A stretch of DNA of 64,000 bases from Xenophilus sp. Marseille-Q4582 (GTDB taxonomy: Bacteria; Pseudomonadota; Gammaproteobacteria; Burkholderiales; Burkholderiaceae_C), in contig NZ_CAKAKO010000006.1 in the NCBI RefSeq assembly GCF_916700565.1, positions 806,001 to 870,000 of the forward strand, given 5' to 3'. Below the pieces are notes generated by a model that saw nothing but the letters and a program-made list of their open reading frames with translations, ran no database searches and was not told the DNA's origin. Position 1 is the first letter of the stretch, and every line of letters begins with the position of its first letter. Of this stretch, positions 5,661 to 13,488 are shown piece after piece. Made by a program: the position numbers and the translations under genes.

Positions 5661-6539
5661 ATGACCTGCCCCCACGATCCGAATGCCGGCGCCCGCCGCC
5701 CTGAAGACATCGTCCACGAGGAAAAGGCCCAGCTCGACTTCAGCCAGTCGATGAGCTACGGCGATTACCTGCATCTGGACGAAGTGCTCAACGCCCAGCA
5801 TCCGCTCTCGCCCGCGCACGACGAGATGCTGTTCATCGTGCAGCACCAGACCAGCGAGCTGTGGATGAAGCTGATGCTGCACGAACTGCGTGCCGCCATC
5901 GCCGCCATCGCCAATCCGTCGGAAGACACCAAGCCCGAGGCTTTCAAGACGCTGGCGCGCGTCTCGCGCATCATGGAGCAGCTGGTCAACGCCTGGACCG
6001 TGCTGTCGACCATGACGCCGCCCGAGTACACCGCCATGCGGCCCTACCTGGCCAACTCCAGCGGCTTCCAGAGCGCGCAGTACCGCTGCATCGAGTTCGC
6101 GCTGGGCAACAAGAACGCCGCCATGCTCAAGCCGCATGCGCACCGGCCCGACCTGCTGGCGCAGGTGGAAGCCGCCTGGCGCGCGCCCTCGCTGTACGAC
6201 GAAGCGCTGCGCCTGATGGCGCGCCACGGCCTCGCGGTGCCGGCCGACCGGCTGGAGCGCGACTGGACGCAGCCCTATGTGGCCAGCCCCGGCGTGGAAG
6301 AAGCCTGGCTCACGGTGTACCGCGACCCGCACCGGTACTGGGACCTGTACCAGCTGGGCGAGAAGCTCACCGACATCGAGGACGCCTTCCGCCTGTGGCG
6401 CTTCCGCCATGTGACCACCGTGGAGCGCGTGATCGGCTTCAAGCGCGGCACCGGCGGCACGGGCGGCGTGAGCTACCTGCGCAAGATGCTGGACGTGGTG
6501 CTCTTCCCCGAGATCTGGACGCTGCGCACGGCGCTCTGA
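5661..6539 (+). CDS. kynA: Tryptophan 2,3-dioxygenase
   Basis: 292 residues; cytoplasmic haem enzyme opening the indole ring of L-tryptophan to N-formylkynurenine, the first step of the kynurenine route. It is collinear with characterised bacterial enzymes: distal H62 in V-Q-H-Q-T-S-E-L-W, substrate-binding Y123 and R127 ([10 protein letters not shown]), proximal haem ligand H250 in F-R-H-V-T-T-V, and the G-T-G-G-T-G-G loop at 263-269. The ATG at 5661 follows AGAGGTAACCCC, an acceptable ribosome site. kynB and kynU are not in the window. A perfect palindrome GCCCGGCGCGCCGGGC lies just after the stop (6544-6559), in the gap to the convergent AraC gene. Confidence 0.97.
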
Positions 6540-7736: not shown

Positions 7737-9011
7737 GTGTCCTCCTCTTCGTCCTGCACCTCCTGCCCGTCGCTTCCGGCGACGGCCGCCCTCGATGCCG
7801 CTCCCGCTTCGAGCGGCGTCCCGCCAGCCGCCCAGGCCCCCTCCAGCACCCAGGAGGCGCCGCACTGGCCGGCCGTCGCCGCCCTGTCGCTGGGCGTGTT
7901 CGGGCTGGTCACGGCCGAGTTCCTGCCCGCCAGCCTGCTCACGGCCATGGCGGCCGACCTGCGCGTGAGCGAAGGCACGGCCGGCCAGACCGTGACGGCC
8001 ACCGCCCTGGTCGCCGCCGTGTCCGCGCCGCTGGTGCCGCTGCTCACGCGCCACCTGGACCGTCGCACCGTGATGCTTGCGCTCACGGGGCTGCTGGTCG
8101 CGTCCAACCTGATCACGGTCAGCACCGCCAGCCTGATGGCGTTGCTGGCCGCGCGGCTGCTGCTGGGCATCGCGCTGGGCGGCTTCTGGTCCATGTCGGG
8201 CGCGCTCGCGCTGCGGCTGGTGCCCGCGCATCTGTTCGCGCGTGCGATGGCGCTGATCCTGACCGGCGTGTCCGTCGCCACGGTGTGCGCGGCGCCGCTG
8301 GGGGCCTGGATGGGCGAGCTGTGGGGCTGGCGCAGCGCCTTCCTGGCGGCCGGCGCGGTGAGCCTGCTGACGCTGGCGATCCAGCTCGCCTCCCTGCCGG
8401 CGCTGCCGCCGCGCGACCGGCCCGACCTGCGCGTGCTGGCCCGGCTGCTGGCGCGGGGCGACGTGCGCGTGGCGCTGCTGGCCGTGCTGCTGGTCATTTC
8501 CGGCCATTTCGCCGGTTTCACCTACATCCGGCCGCTGATGGAGAACGTCACGCAGCTCTCGGTGGGGGCGATCACCGGCATCCTGCTGGGTTACGGCATC
8601 GGCGGCTTCTTCGGCAACCTGGTCGGCGGCGCCATCGCCGAGCGCAGCGAGCGGCGCGCCATCGTGGCGGGCGCGGTGCTGATCGCGCTGCTGGCCGCCA
8701 GCCTGCTGGTGGCCGGCACGTCCTTCGCCGTCACGGCCGTGGCGGTGGTGCTGTGGGGTTTCGCCTTCGGCGCCTTCCCGGTCGGTTTCCAGACCTGGAT
8801 CGTGCGTGCGGCGCCCGAGCAGGCGGAAGGCGCCGGCGGCCTGCTGGTGGCCGCCTTCCAGATCGCCATCGCCACGGGCGCGGTGGGCGGCGGGCTGCTG
8901 GTGGACCACATCGGCGCGCGGGGCGGCCCGCTGTTCGCGGCGGTCGCGATGACGCTGGGCGCGCAACTGGTCTGGCGACGCGGCCCGCGCGCGCCTGCCC
9001 AGGCGCGGTAG
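7737..9011 (+). CDS. MFS efflux transporter, DHA1 type (NepI/AraJ-like)
   Basis: About 424 residues with 12 hydrophobic segments, starting with a Ser/Ala/Pro-rich cytoplasmic stretch of about 45 residues. DHA1 signatures: L-T-R-H-L-D-R-R-T-V-M after helix 2, and A-R-L-L-L-G-I-A-L-G-G-F-W-S in helix 4. Such pumps export sugars, nucleosides or drugs by proton antiport. GTG 7737 was chosen because it leaves a regulatory gap from the divergent AraC start at 7654; an ATG near 7669 is possible and would add about 22 residues. It converges with luxI, 10 bp away. Confidence 0.85.
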   Translation: MSSSSSCTSCPSLPATAALDAAPASSGVPPAAQAPSSTQEAPHWPAVAALSLGVFGLVTAEFLPASLLTAMAADLRVSEGTAGQTVTATALVAAVSAPLVPLLTRHLDRRTVMLALTGLLVASNLITVSTASLMALLAARLLLGIALGGFWSMSGALALRLVPAHLFARAMALILTGVSVATVCAAPLGAWMGELWGWRSAFLAAGAVSLLTLAIQLASLPALPPRDRPDLRVLARLLARGDVRVALLAVLLVISGHFAGFTYIRPLMENVTQLSVGAITGILLGYGIGGFFGNLVGGAIAERSERRAIVAGAVLIALLAASLLVAGTSFAVTAVAVVLWGFAFGAFPVGFQTWIVRAAPEQAEGAGGLLVAAFQIAIATGAVGGGLLVDHIGARGGPLFAAVAMTLGAQLVWRRGPRAPAQAR

Positions 9012-9021
9012 GCCGCCGCGC

Positions 9022-9630
9022 TCAGTGCGAGAGCTCGACGCGGTCGCGTTCGAGCTGCGCCAAGCAGGCCGGGTCGGTGGTGTCGATCCAGCAGGCAAAG
9101 ATGGGGTGGCCGCCCATCAGCTGCGGGGGGCCGGCGCGGTGCGAGCGGTAGCCGCCTCGGCGCAGCAGGCGCTCGATGCCCAGCGGCGACACGGTGATCA
9201 CGCGCTCGGCGCCCTGGGCGCGCGCGGCCTCCAGCGAGGCCGCCAGCAGCGAGGCCGCCACGTAGGCCGAAAACTGGCCCATCGCCTGGCCCGTGGGCTT
9301 GGTGAAGTCCACGGCCGCGAAGCGCGACAGCTCCCACACGCGCGGATCCCTGGGCGGTTCGGCGCCAGCCATCAGTTCGGGGAACACCTCGCCCAGCAGG
9401 TAGGGGCGAGTGGTGGGCAGCAGGCGCGCGGTGCCGATGACCGCGCCCGCATCGTCGCGCGCCACCACGTACAGCGTGTCCTCGCGGTCGAACTGGTCGC
9501 GCTCGATGCCGGGCTCGTCGATGAGCAACTCCCACTTGAGCATGTCGACGAAAACCTTGTGGCGGTAGCGGCCGATGTCTTCGAACAGCTGGGGGGCGAT
9601 GTCGCCGCAGCGACCAGTGAGCATCTGCAT
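9022..9630 (-). CDS. luxI: LuxI-family acyl-homoserine-lactone synthase
   Basis: 202 residues. Makes N-acyl-homoserine-lactone signal from S-adenosylmethionine and an acyl-ACP. All invariant LuxI residues are present: R23, F27, W33, D45, D48 (E-R-D-Q-F-D), R69 (T-A-R-L-L-P), F83, E100 and R103 (V-W-E-L-S-R-F). The L-L-P-T-T-R-P-Y-L-L-G stretch places it in the proteobacterial subgroup common in Burkholderiales. ATG 9630 fits the family N-terminus; another ATG lies two codons later and longer starts lack support. A lux box 58 bp upstream predicts positive feedback by the neighbouring LuxR. Acyl chain length cannot be read from sequence. Confidence 0.96.
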   Translation of the reverse strand: MQMLTGRCGDIAPQLFEDIGRYRHKVFVDMLKWELLIDEPGIERDQFDREDTLYVVARDDAGAVIGTARLLPTTRPYLLGEVFPELMAGAEPPRDPRVWELSRFAAVDFTKPTGQAMGQFSAYVAASLLAASLEAARAQGAERVITVSPLGIERLLRRGGYRSHRAGPPQLMGGHPIFACWIDTTDPACLAQLERDRVELSH

Positions 9631-9687
9631 GGGGGTGGATCCGAGTGGTTGTATCCATTCATTGCAGCGCTCCTGGCCCGTAGAAGA

Positions 9688-9707
9688 AACTACCAAGTCT
9701 GATAGCT
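9688..9707 (-). promoter_or_regulatory. lux box upstream of luxI
   Basis: AACTACCAAGTCTGATAGCT on the plus strand. It has the CT-N2-CA-N4-TG-N2-AG dyad of LuxR-type binding sites and shares that frame with the box at 11301-11320. Its centre (9697.5) is 67 bp before the luxI ATG; a class II arrangement would put the transcription start near 9655 and leave a 25-nt leader. Confidence 0.7.
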
Positions 9708-9803
9708 TGCGCTGCGCCCCGCCGCGGACTCCGAAGTGTCAACAGCGTGGCGCGGCCCCGTGGCCGCCGGCTCAAGATAGGGACCCGCACCGGGCCGGCG
9801 TTT

Positions 9804-10199
9804 TCAGTTCACATGGCGTTGGCAGACCGCCTCGAAGGCCGGCGAGATCCAGTCGATGCGGTCGATGAAATCGGCCAGCACCTGGAGGTTGTGCTCCCAG
9901 GGCAGCGGACGCAGGCAGGCGTCCAGGACCTGGATGTTGGTGCGCGGCAGGCCCAGGCGCGCGACCTGCGGCCGCCCCACGCCCGGCAGCAACTGCCAAT
10001 CCCAGCCCAGGGTCAGGGTGGCGGCGTCGGGGCTGATCCATTCGGTGTAGCCGGACATCTGGACCACGCGGCCGCAGCGCCCGGCGGCCACCACGGGCTC
10101 CTCCTCGTCGTCCATGCCGGACATCAGGTGGACCAGGCGCAGCGCCGCCAGCTCCGAGGGGCGCAGATGCAGCAGGCCTTCATGGAAGGACGGGTTCAT
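9804..10199 (-). CDS. RsaM-like quorum-sensing modulator (DUF4902-type)
   Basis: 131 residues. It lies between luxI and luxR, the position of rsaM/tofM genes in Pseudomonas and Burkholderia, whose products damp acyl-homoserine-lactone signalling. The G-Y-T-E-W (50-54) and T-L-G-W-D-W (63-68) motifs fit my recollection of that family, but assignment is by pattern and context. It is somewhat shorter than the roughly 150-170 residues usual for RsaM. ATG 10199 is preferred; upstream codons are Arg/Ala-rich and noncoding in character. An AT-rich stretch (TTGTGA, 16 bp, TACATC on the minus strand; 10342-10369) may be its promoter and overlaps the region before luxR. Confidence 0.65.
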   Translation of the reverse strand: MNPSFHEGLLHLRPSELAALRLVHLMSGMDDEEEPVVAAGRCGRVVQMSGYTEWISPDAATLTLGWDWQLLPGVGRPQVARLGLPRTNIQVLDACLRPLPWEHNLQVLADFIDRIDWISPAFEAVCQRHVN

Positions 10200-10443
10200 G
10201 TCGCGCCTCCTGCCGACGCCACGGGGAAAGGCCGGGAGGCGCGCGGCGGCGCGAACGGCGCCACGACGGCACCCAGGCCTGCGGGCGCCGCCCTCTCGCG
10301 GCAGCGTCGTCCGGGCGGCGACTCGGCAGCAAGAAACATTTGATGTAAATTCATGCTGACGATTCACAATGCGAGGACCGTGGGCGCCGCCGCGCGGCGG
10401 TCTGGCGCTCCCCCTTCATCCGATTCCCTGCAGCAGGCCGTTC

Positions 10444-11157
10444 GTGCACTCCTTTGCCGAGAATCTCCTGGTCGCCCTGGACCGCGCCACCGACGAGGCC
10501 GTGGTCTTCCAGGCCCTGCTGAACGCTGCGCGCGACCTGGGCTTCGACCACTGCGCCTACGGCCTGCGGCTCGCGATCCCGGTCTCGAACCCCAAGGTCA
10601 TCACGCTCAACAACTACTCCGAGCAGTGGCAGCGGCGCTACGCCGAGGCCGGCTACCTGCAGGTCGACCCCAGCGTGCGCCTGGGTCACCTGAGCCAGCA
10701 GCCGCTGGTGTGGACGGACGAGATGTTCGCGGACACGCCGGAATTCTGGGAAGAGGCGCGCGGCCAGGGCCTGTGCGTGGGATGGGCCCAGTCCAGCCTC
10801 GACGGCTTCGGCGTGGGAGGCATGCTCACGCTCTCGCGCGGGGGCGAGCCCTTCTCGGCGCTGGAGCTGCGCGAGAAGGAAACCAAGATGCGCTGGCTGG
10901 TGCAATCGGCGCACCTGTCGCTGTCGCGGCTGATGCAGGCACGCTACGTCCCGCCCCAGGAAGAGGCGCTGACCGCGCGCGAGGTGGAGGTGCTCAAGTG
11001 GACGGCCGACGGCAAGACCGCCGCCGACATCGGCGACATCCTGTCCATCTCGATCCCCACGGTCAATTTCCATATCAAGAACGCGGTGCAGAAGCTGAAG
11101 GTGGCCAACAAGACGGCGGCGGTGGTGCAGGCGTTGATGCGCGGCCTGTTGCACTGA
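10444..11157 (+). CDS. luxR: LuxR-family quorum-sensing receptor/regulator
   Basis: 237 residues from GTG 10444, the normal LuxR length; an ATG at 10369 would add 25 atypical residues and has no ribosome site, whereas AGG lies 8 nt before the GTG. The N-terminal autoinducer domain keeps the ligand residues W62, Y66, D75 and W90, matching TraR W57, Y61, D70 and W85. The C-terminal GerE-type helix-turn-helix runs from L-T-A-R-E-V-E-V-L-K-W (about 177) to K-L-K-V-A-N-K-T-A. Divergent from the RsaM-like gene, with luxI beyond it. Two lux boxes in the locus are its likely targets. Confidence 0.95.
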   Translation: MHSFAENLLVALDRATDEAVVFQALLNAARDLGFDHCAYGLRLAIPVSNPKVITLNNYSEQWQRRYAEAGYLQVDPSVRLGHLSQQPLVWTDEMFADTPEFWEEARGQGLCVGWAQSSLDGFGVGGMLTLSRGGEPFSALELREKETKMRWLVQSAHLSLSRLMQARYVPPQEEALTAREVEVLKWTADGKTAADIGDILSISIPTVNFHIKNAVQKLKVANKTAAVVQALMRGLLH

Positions 11158-11300
11158 CACGCCCCGTCTTCCCGCCCGCCGGGCCGCGCGGCCGCGGGCG
11201 GGCGGCGCGGCTGCGCCGGCCGCCGCGCCGCGGGTCCGTGCCTCGTGTGTGACGTGAATGTCATTGTGCGGTCGCCGCGCCGCCGGCGCACCCTGTGGCC

Positions 11301-11320
11301 ACCTGTCAAAGCTGGTAGGT
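11301..11320 (+). promoter_or_regulatory. Near-consensus lux box before the unknown gene at 11355
   Basis: ACCTGTCAAAGCTGGTAGGT, a dyad with outer ACCT/AGGT and inner CA/TG pairs, close to the classic LuxR-family site. The centre (11310.5) is 44.5 bp before the A of the ATG at 11355. A LuxR bound at the usual -42.5 position would start transcription at about 11353, with TTCAAT (11342-11347) as a possible -10 element. Confidence 0.72.
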
Positions 11321-11354
11321 CACAGAAGGGGCGCCCTCGCGTTCAATCACGCGC

Positions 11355-12125
11355 ATGGATCTCGCCGCTTTCCTCTCCAGCGCGCACATCAGCGTTCACC
11401 TGGCCTCCGACTCGCTGTTGGCCTGTGAAGTGCAGCGCCGCTGCGGCGTGCGCCGGCTGGCCCGGCAGGCCAGCTTTTCCTTCCAGCGCGGTGAACGCTC
11501 GCAGGCCATGCAGCGCCTGGGCGAATGGATCACCGACACGCCTTCGGCGCGCCGCACCCTCGGCTGGGTGATCGGCCCGAGCCAGGCGCAGTATTTCGTG
11601 CTGCCCTGGTCGCCCGAATCGGTGGACCGCACCTTGCGCGACAGCTACGCCCGCGCCCGCTACGAACAGCTGTACGAGGCCGACGCGCGCACCGCCGCGT
11701 TCTTCTTCGCCGCCCCTGCGGCCAGCGGTGAGCAGCTCGTGTCCTGCATCCCGATGTCGCTGCGCGCCGAGCTGCAGTCGCATGCCCGGGCGGCCGGCTG
11801 CTCGCTGCACAGCATCAAGCCCTCGCTGTCCGCCGTGTGGGAGCGCTTCCGCCACGTGCTGGAAGCCGAGCGCGGCACGCTGTGCCTGGTGGAGGACGAC
11901 CAGGAGGCCATCGTGCGCCACGATCGCCGGCGCATCGAGCACGTGGAGGTGGCGCGCCGCCGGCCGGACGCCGCCGCGCAGCGCGAGGGCGGCGCGGGCG
12001 TGCTGCGCCGCTTCTCGAACACCGAGGCGCCGCAGGCCGCCACCGACCTGCGCCTGCCGCGCTGGCACGGCGCGGGCGAGGCGCAGGATTCGCGCTACGC
12101 CTTCGCCCTTTGCGGCGCGTTCTGA
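11355..12125 (+). CDS. Protein of unknown function, predicted quorum-sensing target
   Basis: 256 residues; no family recognised with confidence. No signal peptide or membrane segment. The order of segments recalls the actin-like fold of PilM/GspL-type pilus and secretion proteins: an opening strand pair (V-H-L-A-S-D-S-L-L-A-C-E-V), L-G-W-V-I-G-P-S-Q-A-Q-Y-F-V-L-P-W near 68-84, a helix with Y-A-R-A-R-Y-E-Q-L-Y, and A-G-C-S-L-H-S-I-K-P-S-L-S-A-V-W near 146-161. The C-terminal 60 residues are Arg/Ala-rich and poorly structured. The start ATG has no ribosome site nearby, and the lux box position predicts a nearly leaderless message. It stands alone: luxR lies upstream on the same strand and the next gene is convergent. 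Confidence 0.75.
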   Translation: MDLAAFLSSAHISVHLASDSLLACEVQRRCGVRRLARQASFSFQRGERSQAMQRLGEWITDTPSARRTLGWVIGPSQAQYFVLPWSPESVDRTLRDSYARARYEQLYEADARTAAFFFAAPAASGEQLVSCIPMSLRAELQSHARAAGCSLHSIKPSLSAVWERFRHVLEAERGTLCLVEDDQEAIVRHDRRRIEHVEVARRRPDAAAQREGGAGVLRRFSNTEAPQAATDLRLPRWHGAGEAQDSRYAFALCGAF

Positions 12126-12179
12126 ACGCGGCCCGGCGGGGCAGCCGCGGCCCGAGCCGCTTGGCGCGGCTGCGCCGGT

Positions 12180-13379
12180 TCAGCCGGCGTAGAGCCAGGG
12201 CACGTCCAGCACGCGTGCGCCGCCCAGGCGCATCGCCCAGTCCCGGCCCCACCGCAGCAAGCCCGTGGCATGGAAGATGCGCGCGTTGCGCCGCGCCCGC
12301 GCCTGCACGCGCGCGTTCCGGGCCCAGCGCTGGGCAGCGTACTGCGCGAAGGCCGCCGGCAGCTGCCCGGCGTCCACGCCGGCCAGCACCTCGGCCAGGG
12401 TGGCCGCGTCCTCGATCGCCATGCCGGCGCCCTGCGCCAGGTAGGGCAGCATGGGGTGCGCGGCATCGCCCAGCAGCGCAATGCGCGCCTGCGCCATCTG
12501 CGCGGGCCCTTGCAGCGGCGGGCGGTCATGCAGGGTCCAGGCGCGCCAGGCGGGCACGGCGTCGAGCAGCGCGCGCAGCCCGGCGCCCGCCTGCCGCGTG
12601 GCCTGCCGCAGGGTGTCGAGGCTGGCCTCCTGGTCCCAGCCGCGCGCGTCCAGCCCGGCGCCCTCGGGCGGCGCGGCCTCGGCCAGCACCACCACGTTGA
12701 GGAAGTCGCCGGCCCGCACCGGGTAGGCCACCACATGCACGCGCGCGCCCAGCCAGATCTGGATGCGGTCGCTGCGCAGGGCCTGCGGCAGCGCGGCCTG
12801 CGCCAGCAAGGCACGCCAGGCCGTGTGGCCGGTGCGGTGCGGCGGGGCGTCGTGTTCGATCACGCGCGCGCGCGTCGCGCCCCACAGGCCGTCCGCGCCC
12901 ACCAGGCCGTCGGCCTCCCACGCGCGCGTGTCGTCGGCGGCCGCGCACACGGCTTCGCCGCCACGGGTGGCGATGCGCGAGACGCGCGCGCCCGTGTGCA
13001 GGCTCAGCCGCGACGGCCCCTGCGCTTTCAGCGCACCGAGCAGCACCGCATGCAGGTCGGCGCGGTGCACGCACAGGTAGGGCGCGCCATAGCGCCGCAC
13101 GCGCGCGGCGTCGAAGACCATGCGCGCCAGCTCGTCGCCGCCCTGGACGCTGCGCACGCTCAGGCGCGTGGGGCGCGCGGCCACGTCCTGCAGCGCGGGC
13201 TCCACGCCCAGCGCGCGCAGCCGGCGCACCACGTTCGGCCCCAGCTGGATCCCGGCGCCGAATTCCTCGAAGCGCGCGGCCTGCTCCAGCACGTCCACCC
13301 GGTGGCCGCCCCGGCCCAGCGCCAGCGCAGCCGCCAGCCCGCCGATGCCGCCACCGACGATCAGAAGTTGCAGACTCAT
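12180..13379 (-). CDS. FAD-dependent aromatic monooxygenase (salicylate hydroxylase-like)
   Basis: 399 residues of the PHBH-fold flavin hydroxylases, which use NAD(P)H and O2 to hydroxylate aromatic acids. The FAD-binding G-G-G-I-G-G (9-14) opens the protein. E-F-G-A-G-I-Q-L-G-P-N near 40-50 and the second FAD motif G-D-A-A-H-P-M with Q-G-A-G-M-A-I-E-D about 285-310 are typical of the salicylate / 3-hydroxybenzoate 6-hydroxylase branch. ATG 13379 puts the FAD motif at the expected distance. It stands alone between a convergent unknown gene and acnA, so the substrate cannot be inferred. A 6-bp hairpin (12155-12171) lies in the convergent gap. Confidence 0.87.
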   Translation of the reverse strand: MSLQLLIVGGGIGGLAAALALGRGGHRVDVLEQAARFEEFGAGIQLGPNVVRRLRALGVEPALQDVAARPTRLSVRSVQGGDELARMVFDAARVRRYGAPYLCVHRADLHAVLLGALKAQGPSRLSLHTGARVSRIATRGGEAVCAAADDTRAWEADGLVGADGLWGATRARVIEHDAPPHRTGHTAWRALLAQAALPQALRSDRIQIWLGARVHVVAYPVRAGDFLNVVVLAEAAPPEGAGLDARGWDQEASLDTLRQATRQAGAGLRALLDAVPAWRAWTLHDRPPLQGPAQMAQARIALLGDAAHPMLPYLAQGAGMAIEDAATLAEVLAGVDAGQLPAAFAQYAAQRWARNARVQARARRNARIFHATGLLRWGRDWAMRLGGARVLDVPWLYAG

Positions 13380-13488
13380 GCGCCGATCATGCCGCAAGGC
13401 GCGGGCCCGGCCGGCGGCTGCAAGCGCAGGGCTTGCGCCGGACCAGGCCGCGCGCAGCGGCGTTTTCCGCCGTCTCCTGGAGCGGTTC

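Follow-up and report, generated by a model that had tools for sequence, protein, structure and literature searches.

Promoters of the Vibrio fischeri luxI type carry a lux box at about -42.5 with the half-sites ACCTGT/ACAGGT, and LuxR-type activators generally bind with the box centre at about -42.5, the RNA starting ~7 nt past the -10 hexamer; the generic lux-box consensus is ACCTG-N10-CAGGT. PilM of the type IVa pilus and GspL of the type II secretion system (T2SS) are alike in fold. According to the sections of the sources drawn on here, (i) PilM and the cytoplasmic region of GspL correspond (PMC3815138); (ii) DUF4902 corresponds to RsaM, a family of small quorum-sensing modulators coded beside luxI/luxR, and the review of these loci (PMC10710839) describes a type 1 with the order luxI-rsaM-luxR and puts Xenophilus in its type 6, in which rsaM lies beside luxR and luxI is absent or distant; and (iii) in Burkholderia cenocepacia, 72 primary transcription starts coincide exactly with a start codon and another 42 fall within 10 nt of one, tRNAs making up 24 of the leaderless transcripts (PMC4603805).

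The window analysed here, i.e. the whole 64-kb stretch of DNA, holds a locus akin to type 1 of that review, with rsaM between luxI and luxR and in tandem with luxI (PMC10710839). Unlike the loci in the sections of the review used here, which mention no such gene, it has a fixed fourth gene with a lux box of its own, and unlike type 6, luxI is adjacent in the Xenophilus loci considered here. This fourth gene is called X below. The features are as follows.

luxI, 9022-9630, minus strand: luxI-type acyl-homoserine-lactone (AHL) synthase (PF00765, E 1.8e-28, scored on a longer ORF)
Likely real start of luxI, minus strand: ATG at 9630, predicted by eye from the leaders of relatives
-10-like hexamer of luxI, 9661-9666, minus strand: TGCAAT, 21 nt after the box
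lux box of luxI, 9688-9707, minus strand: AGCTATCAGACTTGGTAGTT, 12 of 12 positions of the local dyad
rsaM, 9804-10199, minus strand: quorum-sensing modulator gene (DUF4902, PF16245, E 2.6e-19), start predicted
luxR, 10369-11157, plus strand: AHL receptor/activator type (PF03472, E 2.1e-32; PF00196, E 2.9e-18)
lux box of X, 11301-11320, plus strand: ACCTGTCAAAGCTGGTAGGT, centre 11310.5, conserved layout
Spacer of X, 11321-11341, plus strand: 21 nt, invariant in length, little conserved in sequence
-10-like hexamer of X, 11342-11347, plus strand: TTCAAT; TTCAAT, TCCAAT or TTGAAT at the same distance in 14 of 14 loci
Predicted transcription start of X, 11353-11355, plus strand: at the A of the ATG or up to 2 nt before it
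Gene X, 11355-12125, plus strand: 256 residues, orphan of the GspL/PilM-slot family (relatives, dN/dS, 41% identity to a slot protein)

The cassette and its fourth gene

A contig scan for X returned 14 loci, two of which (L108 and L109) are identical; with L109 removed and the window added, 14 non-redundant loci are available; profiles, dN/dS values and tree were computed without L109 and the partial L116. In 14 of 14 fetched loci, luxI, rsaM, luxR and X are arranged and oriented as in the window, whereas the outer flanking genes vary from locus to locus (by eye). Within the genus, X was found in 8 of 15 genomes (G009 and G014 apparently being one strain), each time within 1.8 kb of a luxI match, and a less sensitive search gave one X match per genome in these eight. 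A single-sequence search of 60 genomes matched 10, namely the 8 of the genus and 2 remote ones. The notion that X is confined to one genus (1 of the 141 sampled genera) proved wrong, as genomes titled Variovorax carry it. Three further genomes of the genus (G001, G008 and G010; loci L057-L060) have a different luxI-luxR pair, ~43-46% identical, with no match to rsaM or X.

X has the hallmarks of a real gene, since its relatives are 50-77% identical over the matched length, their translations are free of internal stops and dN/dS is 0.09-0.22 in eight pairs. The nearest named relative is from Xenophilus arseniciresistens (77% identity), followed by those in X. aerolatus and Variovorax (50-57%). 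As originally predicted, X belongs to no recognised family: its best Pfam match is far below the cut-off (E 0.13) and NCBIfam gave none. A PDB profile search returned no relative and the PHROGs and phage searches nothing useful, and the titles and abstract openings of the literature searched contain no description of X that we could find, which does not prove its absence elsewhere. Convergent with X in the window is an ORF for an FAD-dependent monooxygenase (12180-13397, minus strand), whose nearest NCBIfam model, 3-hydroxybenzoate 6-monooxygenase, scores under the cut-off; a monooxygenase-like ORF also follows X in L103, and none directly follows X in the other fetched loci (by eye).

Promoter layout and predicted RNA start of X

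According to the original prediction, a near-consensus lux box, ACCTGTCAAAGCTGGTAGGT, occupies 11301-11320 and has its centre 44.5 bp before the start codon of X. Sequence, position and distance were all confirmed, the ATG lying at 11355. Likeness to the textbook consensus proves nothing by itself, since ACCTG-N10-CAGGT with up to two mismatches matches the window 31 times, against 27.8 ± 5.1 times in shuffles, and as proof of the box it was rejected. It is conservation across loci, and not the consensus match, that carries the case for the box. When relatives were checked, the box was found before X in all 14 non-redundant loci, the window included, as a 20-base dyad; the hexamer, TTCAAT, TCCAAT or TTGAAT, comes after exactly 21 further nt. 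In these loci the half-sites carry on average 1.69 bits of information per column and the hexamer 1.79, compared to 0.64 for the spacer and 0.77 for the 25 nt before the box. The most diverged boxes, in L107 and L110, keep the dyad with altered half-site letters. As most rows are close relatives, the 14 loci do not amount to 14 independent trials.

The dyad had also been said to resemble the luxI box, and the likeness extends to the whole layout: in 14 of 14 loci luxI is preceded by a box, 21 nt and then TGAAAT or TGCAAT. We derived the local dyad CTAYCA-N4-TGRTAG from the luxI boxes and the X box, so that a test with it is partly circular because the pattern is drawn from these very boxes, the hexamer distance lying outside the dyad score. 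At 11 or more of 12 positions, the 64 kb contain two sites (4 counting both strands) where 0.07 are expected in simulated windows, and these are the luxI box at 9688-9707 and the X box at 11301-11320. Lowering the threshold to 9 of 12 gives 32 strand-matches in the window against a simulated mean of 38; with the added demand of TNNAAT exactly 21 nt downstream, the luxI and X boxes alone are left, and none of 150 simulated windows had two such sites. The layout, strongly conserved and matching that of the adjacent luxI promoter, agrees with the original proposal that X is a quorum-sensing output and suggests that X is under LuxR control.

Like LuxI/LuxR promoters of the V. fischeri luxI type, that of X has a 20-bp dyad over the -35 position with no -35 hexamer recognised, a -10 element at a fixed distance, and luxI and luxR adjacent; unlike them, it has the half-sites CTAYCA/TGRTAG and an RNA predicted to begin at the target's start codon. 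No sigma-70 promoter pair was found in 8900-12300. With X, the luxI-rsaM-luxR cassette of Xenophilus and Variovorax gains a specific candidate target.

In the genome, the X-box pattern with up to three mismatches has 27 + 16 matches, versus 14 + 20 for the backward control, a scan that misses more diverged boxes. Among 11 box-like sites with readable loci, the hexamer is in place only at luxI and X, so that X may be the main direct target beside luxI. A dyad scan across the genus with at most one mismatch made no wider regulon visible, the dyad being rarer than the backward control in 15 of 15 genomes. Several individual sites with up to two mismatches were considered as members of a regulon and rejected: C1:1082232 and C6:381150 lie inside ORFs read as coding, C4:479246 and C4:479536 overlap the starts of two tRNA-Asp genes, C1:668097 has no hexamer (the one feature checked there), and C6:107044 is an intergenic palindrome with TTCAAT at the wrong spacing. 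The last of these (C6:107044-107063, i.e. L098 2045-2064) is a near-perfect palindrome, GCGACCTACCAATTCTTGTAGGTCGC, similar to the lux box and ~1.2 kb from IS-like transposase ORFs.

The hexamer of X ends at 11347, so that 7 nt further lies 11354; a box centre at -42.5 gives 11353, and the ATG begins at 11355. Because the ATG is found 6-7 nt past the hexamer in 13 of the 14 loci, the RNA should start at the ATG of X. By eye, no Shine-Dalgarno sequence is visible before this ATG, as had been noted at the outset, and X is probably read from a leaderless mRNA, the reading originally put forward. The one locus that departs from the 6-7 nt distance has AAGGAGA and a GTG codon instead: in L110 (Variovorax sp. 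J22R193, 5860-5985) box, gap and hexamer are kept and the apparent GTG start lies 76 nt past the hexamer, giving a leader of ~70 nt with AAGGAGA before the GTG, a natural leadered counterpart of its leaderless relatives. L110 is the first branch within X, which fits, without proving, a loss of the leader in the others. In several X genes of the Variovorax type no later start was seen before the conserved N-terminus (by eye); those of the X. aerolatus type have a further ATG 6 nt, and mostly also one 12 nt, downstream (by eye), which counts against the leaderless reading. X resembles the leaderless genes of B. cenocepacia, as described in the sections of that study used here, in that the start lies at or within 10 nt before the codon and a promoter motif takes the place of the Shine-Dalgarno sequence (PMC4603805). 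The word CepR is absent from the main text of that study, and in the sections used here we saw no lux-box case among its leaderless genes (PMC4603805). The literature searched yielded no paper that joins lux boxes with leaderless genes. In X, the lux box is so placed that activation and leaderless translation would coincide.

For luxI, a start at 9630 is preferred to one at 9696, as the longer ORF (to 9696) opens upstream of the predicted RNA start. In most of L104-L116, the luxI leader has a small hairpin right after the predicted RNA start, e.g. UCCCGA-UACAAC-UCGGGA, followed by the AUG (single-sequence folds); the stems differ and still pair in L107, L110 and L114, whereas both the window (9630-9666, minus strand) and L103 have only a weak form of the hairpin. 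Its position ahead of the luxI AUG likewise suggests the start at 9630.

X and the PilM/GspL slot

Profile searches for relatives of X gave hits in 133 of the 399 genomes sampled from the window's order and in 8 of the 369 of the class sample, both counts including the window's own genome. Outside the cassette, we inspected 18 loci; early hits supplied 11 of them, the class sample 6 and a plasmid 1, and the set is non-random, made up mostly of strong hits. In every one of the 18, the family member is the direct neighbour of a GspE-type ATPase; GspF lies upstream of the two and a secretin downstream. A GspG-type pilin was also found in 17 of them. The one locus scanned with Pfam reads T2SSG, T2SSF, T2SSE with MshEN, the slot gene (no Pfam match), PilN, an unassigned gene in PilO's place, one more gene and Secretin. 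From this gene order, the slot is the place of PilM or of the cytoplasmic region of GspL. Akin to PilM and GspL, members of the slot family thus stand directly after the GspE-type ATPase, and in the Pfam-scanned locus a PilN-type protein follows the slot gene. The tie to pili or secretion that had been suggested for X is supported at the level of sequence, the family occupying the PilM/GspL slot in 18 of 18 loci with one member 41% identical to X.

The homology of X to the slot proteins is strong. In hhalign, X and the slot family align at 99.5% (E 1.3e-22) and 99.7% (E 8.1e-26) over 247-248 columns; the first joint profile of X and slot proteins was built without L046 (a long fused ORF) and the second without the slot hits that have an in-frame TGA (L197, L199 and L204). 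The nearest slot protein, 41% identical to X, is coded on a 1.19-Mb plasmid of Variovorax paradoxus SPNA7 (L220), in a G-F-E-[slot]-N-O-D operon (partly by eye), and the 12.7 kb fetched around its gene contain no matches to luxI, rsaM or luxR. In a tree of 46 rows, rooted at the midpoint and with long branches flagged by the program, X is one clade at 100/99 and the SPNA7 slot protein joins all 13 X rows at 100/100. With this slot protein as sister to all X, X seems to be a former machine component, now separated from the machine. X sits after luxR in 14 of 14 fetched loci, outside any machine operon; gspE, gspF, gspG and pilN of L220 have no match in the window, and no second family member was found in its genome (6 of 96 first-look candidates scored; in an earlier search, all 18 scored). 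X is an orphan homologue and not a working slot gene.

The machine itself, gspG-F-E-[slot]-N-O-D, is common (L039-L049, L211-L216 and L220), with a slot protein that lacks a Pfam or NCBIfam model; its secretin, in the single locus scanned, combines TPR with a Cohesin-like domain. Relatives of the SPNA7 slot protein at 31% identity occur on plasmids NZ_CP049158.1 and NZ_CP049318.1 of Caballeronia SBC1 and SBC2. These loci point to a component family without a Pfam model, of which X would be the quorum-cassette orphan.

The original prediction also saw a vague resemblance of X to PilM/GspL actin-like proteins. The joint profile of X and slot proteins scores 30.0 against GspL, as strongly as does PilM (31.9 in the same test, as comparison pair), and none of 100 column shuffles scored as high (maximum 21.0; reversed profile 14.6). 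For X alone, in contrast, 74 of 100 shuffles scored as high against GspL, i.e. X by itself is at shuffle level, with a null that is possibly slightly off owing to two hhalign errors among these shuffles. Against PilM the joint profile is weak (5 of 100 shuffles as high; slot proteins alone, 26 of 100), and an assignment of X to PilM by direct profile comparison was rejected as not clear of shuffles. From the joint profile, which stands above all shuffles for GspL, a GspL-like actin fold is predicted for X, indirectly and with moderate confidence. Unlike PilM, X stands alone, lacks a DISSSSVKLVEL-type start (by eye) and matches neither PF11104 (PilM) nor PF05134 (GspL) in Pfam. Its 256 residues leave no room for a periplasmic domain of the GspL type. 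By eye, the closing letters of the relatives of X are DAAYAVALCGAL-like (DSRYAFALCGAF in the window), those of PilM e.g. DAPALMIACGLAMRRF. Overall, X appears to be the fixed fourth gene of the luxI/RsaM/LuxR cassette, with its own box, probably leaderless, and an orphan relative of a secretion-platform protein.

Candidate action of X and rival readings

The explanation that we favour, and hold to be probable, is that X is a dedicated, LuxR-activated, leaderless output of the four-gene cassette. The sequences themselves show the cassette, the promoter layout and the homology, whereas the dependence on LuxR, the RNA start and the partner of X are inferred from them. Once cells are dense, LuxR with bound AHL would bind the box at 11301-11320, centred at about -42.5, and touch RNA polymerase on a promoter with a -10-like hexamer and no recognisable -35. 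The RNA of X would start at the ATG or within ~2 nt of it and be translated at quorum as a leaderless mRNA. The product would descend from the slot protein of a gspG-F-E-[slot]-N-O-D machine, one not found in the window's genome. It could then dock, in the manner of a slot protein, on the PilN/GspL-like tail or the GspE/PilB-type ATPase of a resident pilus or T2SS and, once docked, change the assembly of either.

X might instead be a part of the circuit, an RsaM-like feedback modulator that binds LuxR, RsaM or LuxI. We regard this as rather unlikely, if far from negligible: X stays with the cassette in each of the 14 fetched loci even where the surroundings differ, the search of the window's genome gave no machine copy, and RsaM itself, in the parts of the review used here, already exemplifies an additional modulator gene next to luxI/luxR (PMC10710839), but X keeps the length and conserved core of a machine component, and luxI and luxR occur without X in G001, G008 and G010, although that pair is of another type and also lacks rsaM. 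Read-through from luxR as the main source of X, with the box serving luxI only or being a relic, is improbable. X is codirectional with luxR and 197 nt downstream of it (78-230 nt in relatives), and with no terminator found between the two genes the mRNA of X could carry a leader; however, conservation of box and hexamer far exceeds that of the spacer, whose length is exactly 21 nt in all 14 loci, the X box lies ~1.7 kb from the start of luxI, which has its own box, and a luxR-derived mRNA would offer no visible Shine-Dalgarno sequence for X. That the box is a chance dyad before an ordinary gene has the shuffle-level count of textbook-consensus matches in its favour, but it is very improbable, given that all 14 loci conserve the box in its position and that the luxI promoter has a matching layout.

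The window's genome has a type IVa pilus platform (PilM at C4:594853; operon in L217, by eye) and a T2SS with GspL (L101). The PilN-type proteins of slot machines have an LDF- or LDY-like N-terminal tail in 7 of the 11 listed, whereas the resident PilN reads INLLP instead; the resident pilus is for this reason not an obvious fit, and action of X on a resident machine is accordingly graded as possible but clearly short of probable. About as tentative is the specific version in which a platform protein was lifted from its machine and wired as the leaderless output of the cassette, so that quorum would retune a pilus or T2SS through a GspL/PilM-like adaptor or decoy. If X does act on a resident machine, one soluble part, rather than regulation of an operon, would couple cell density to pili or secretion.
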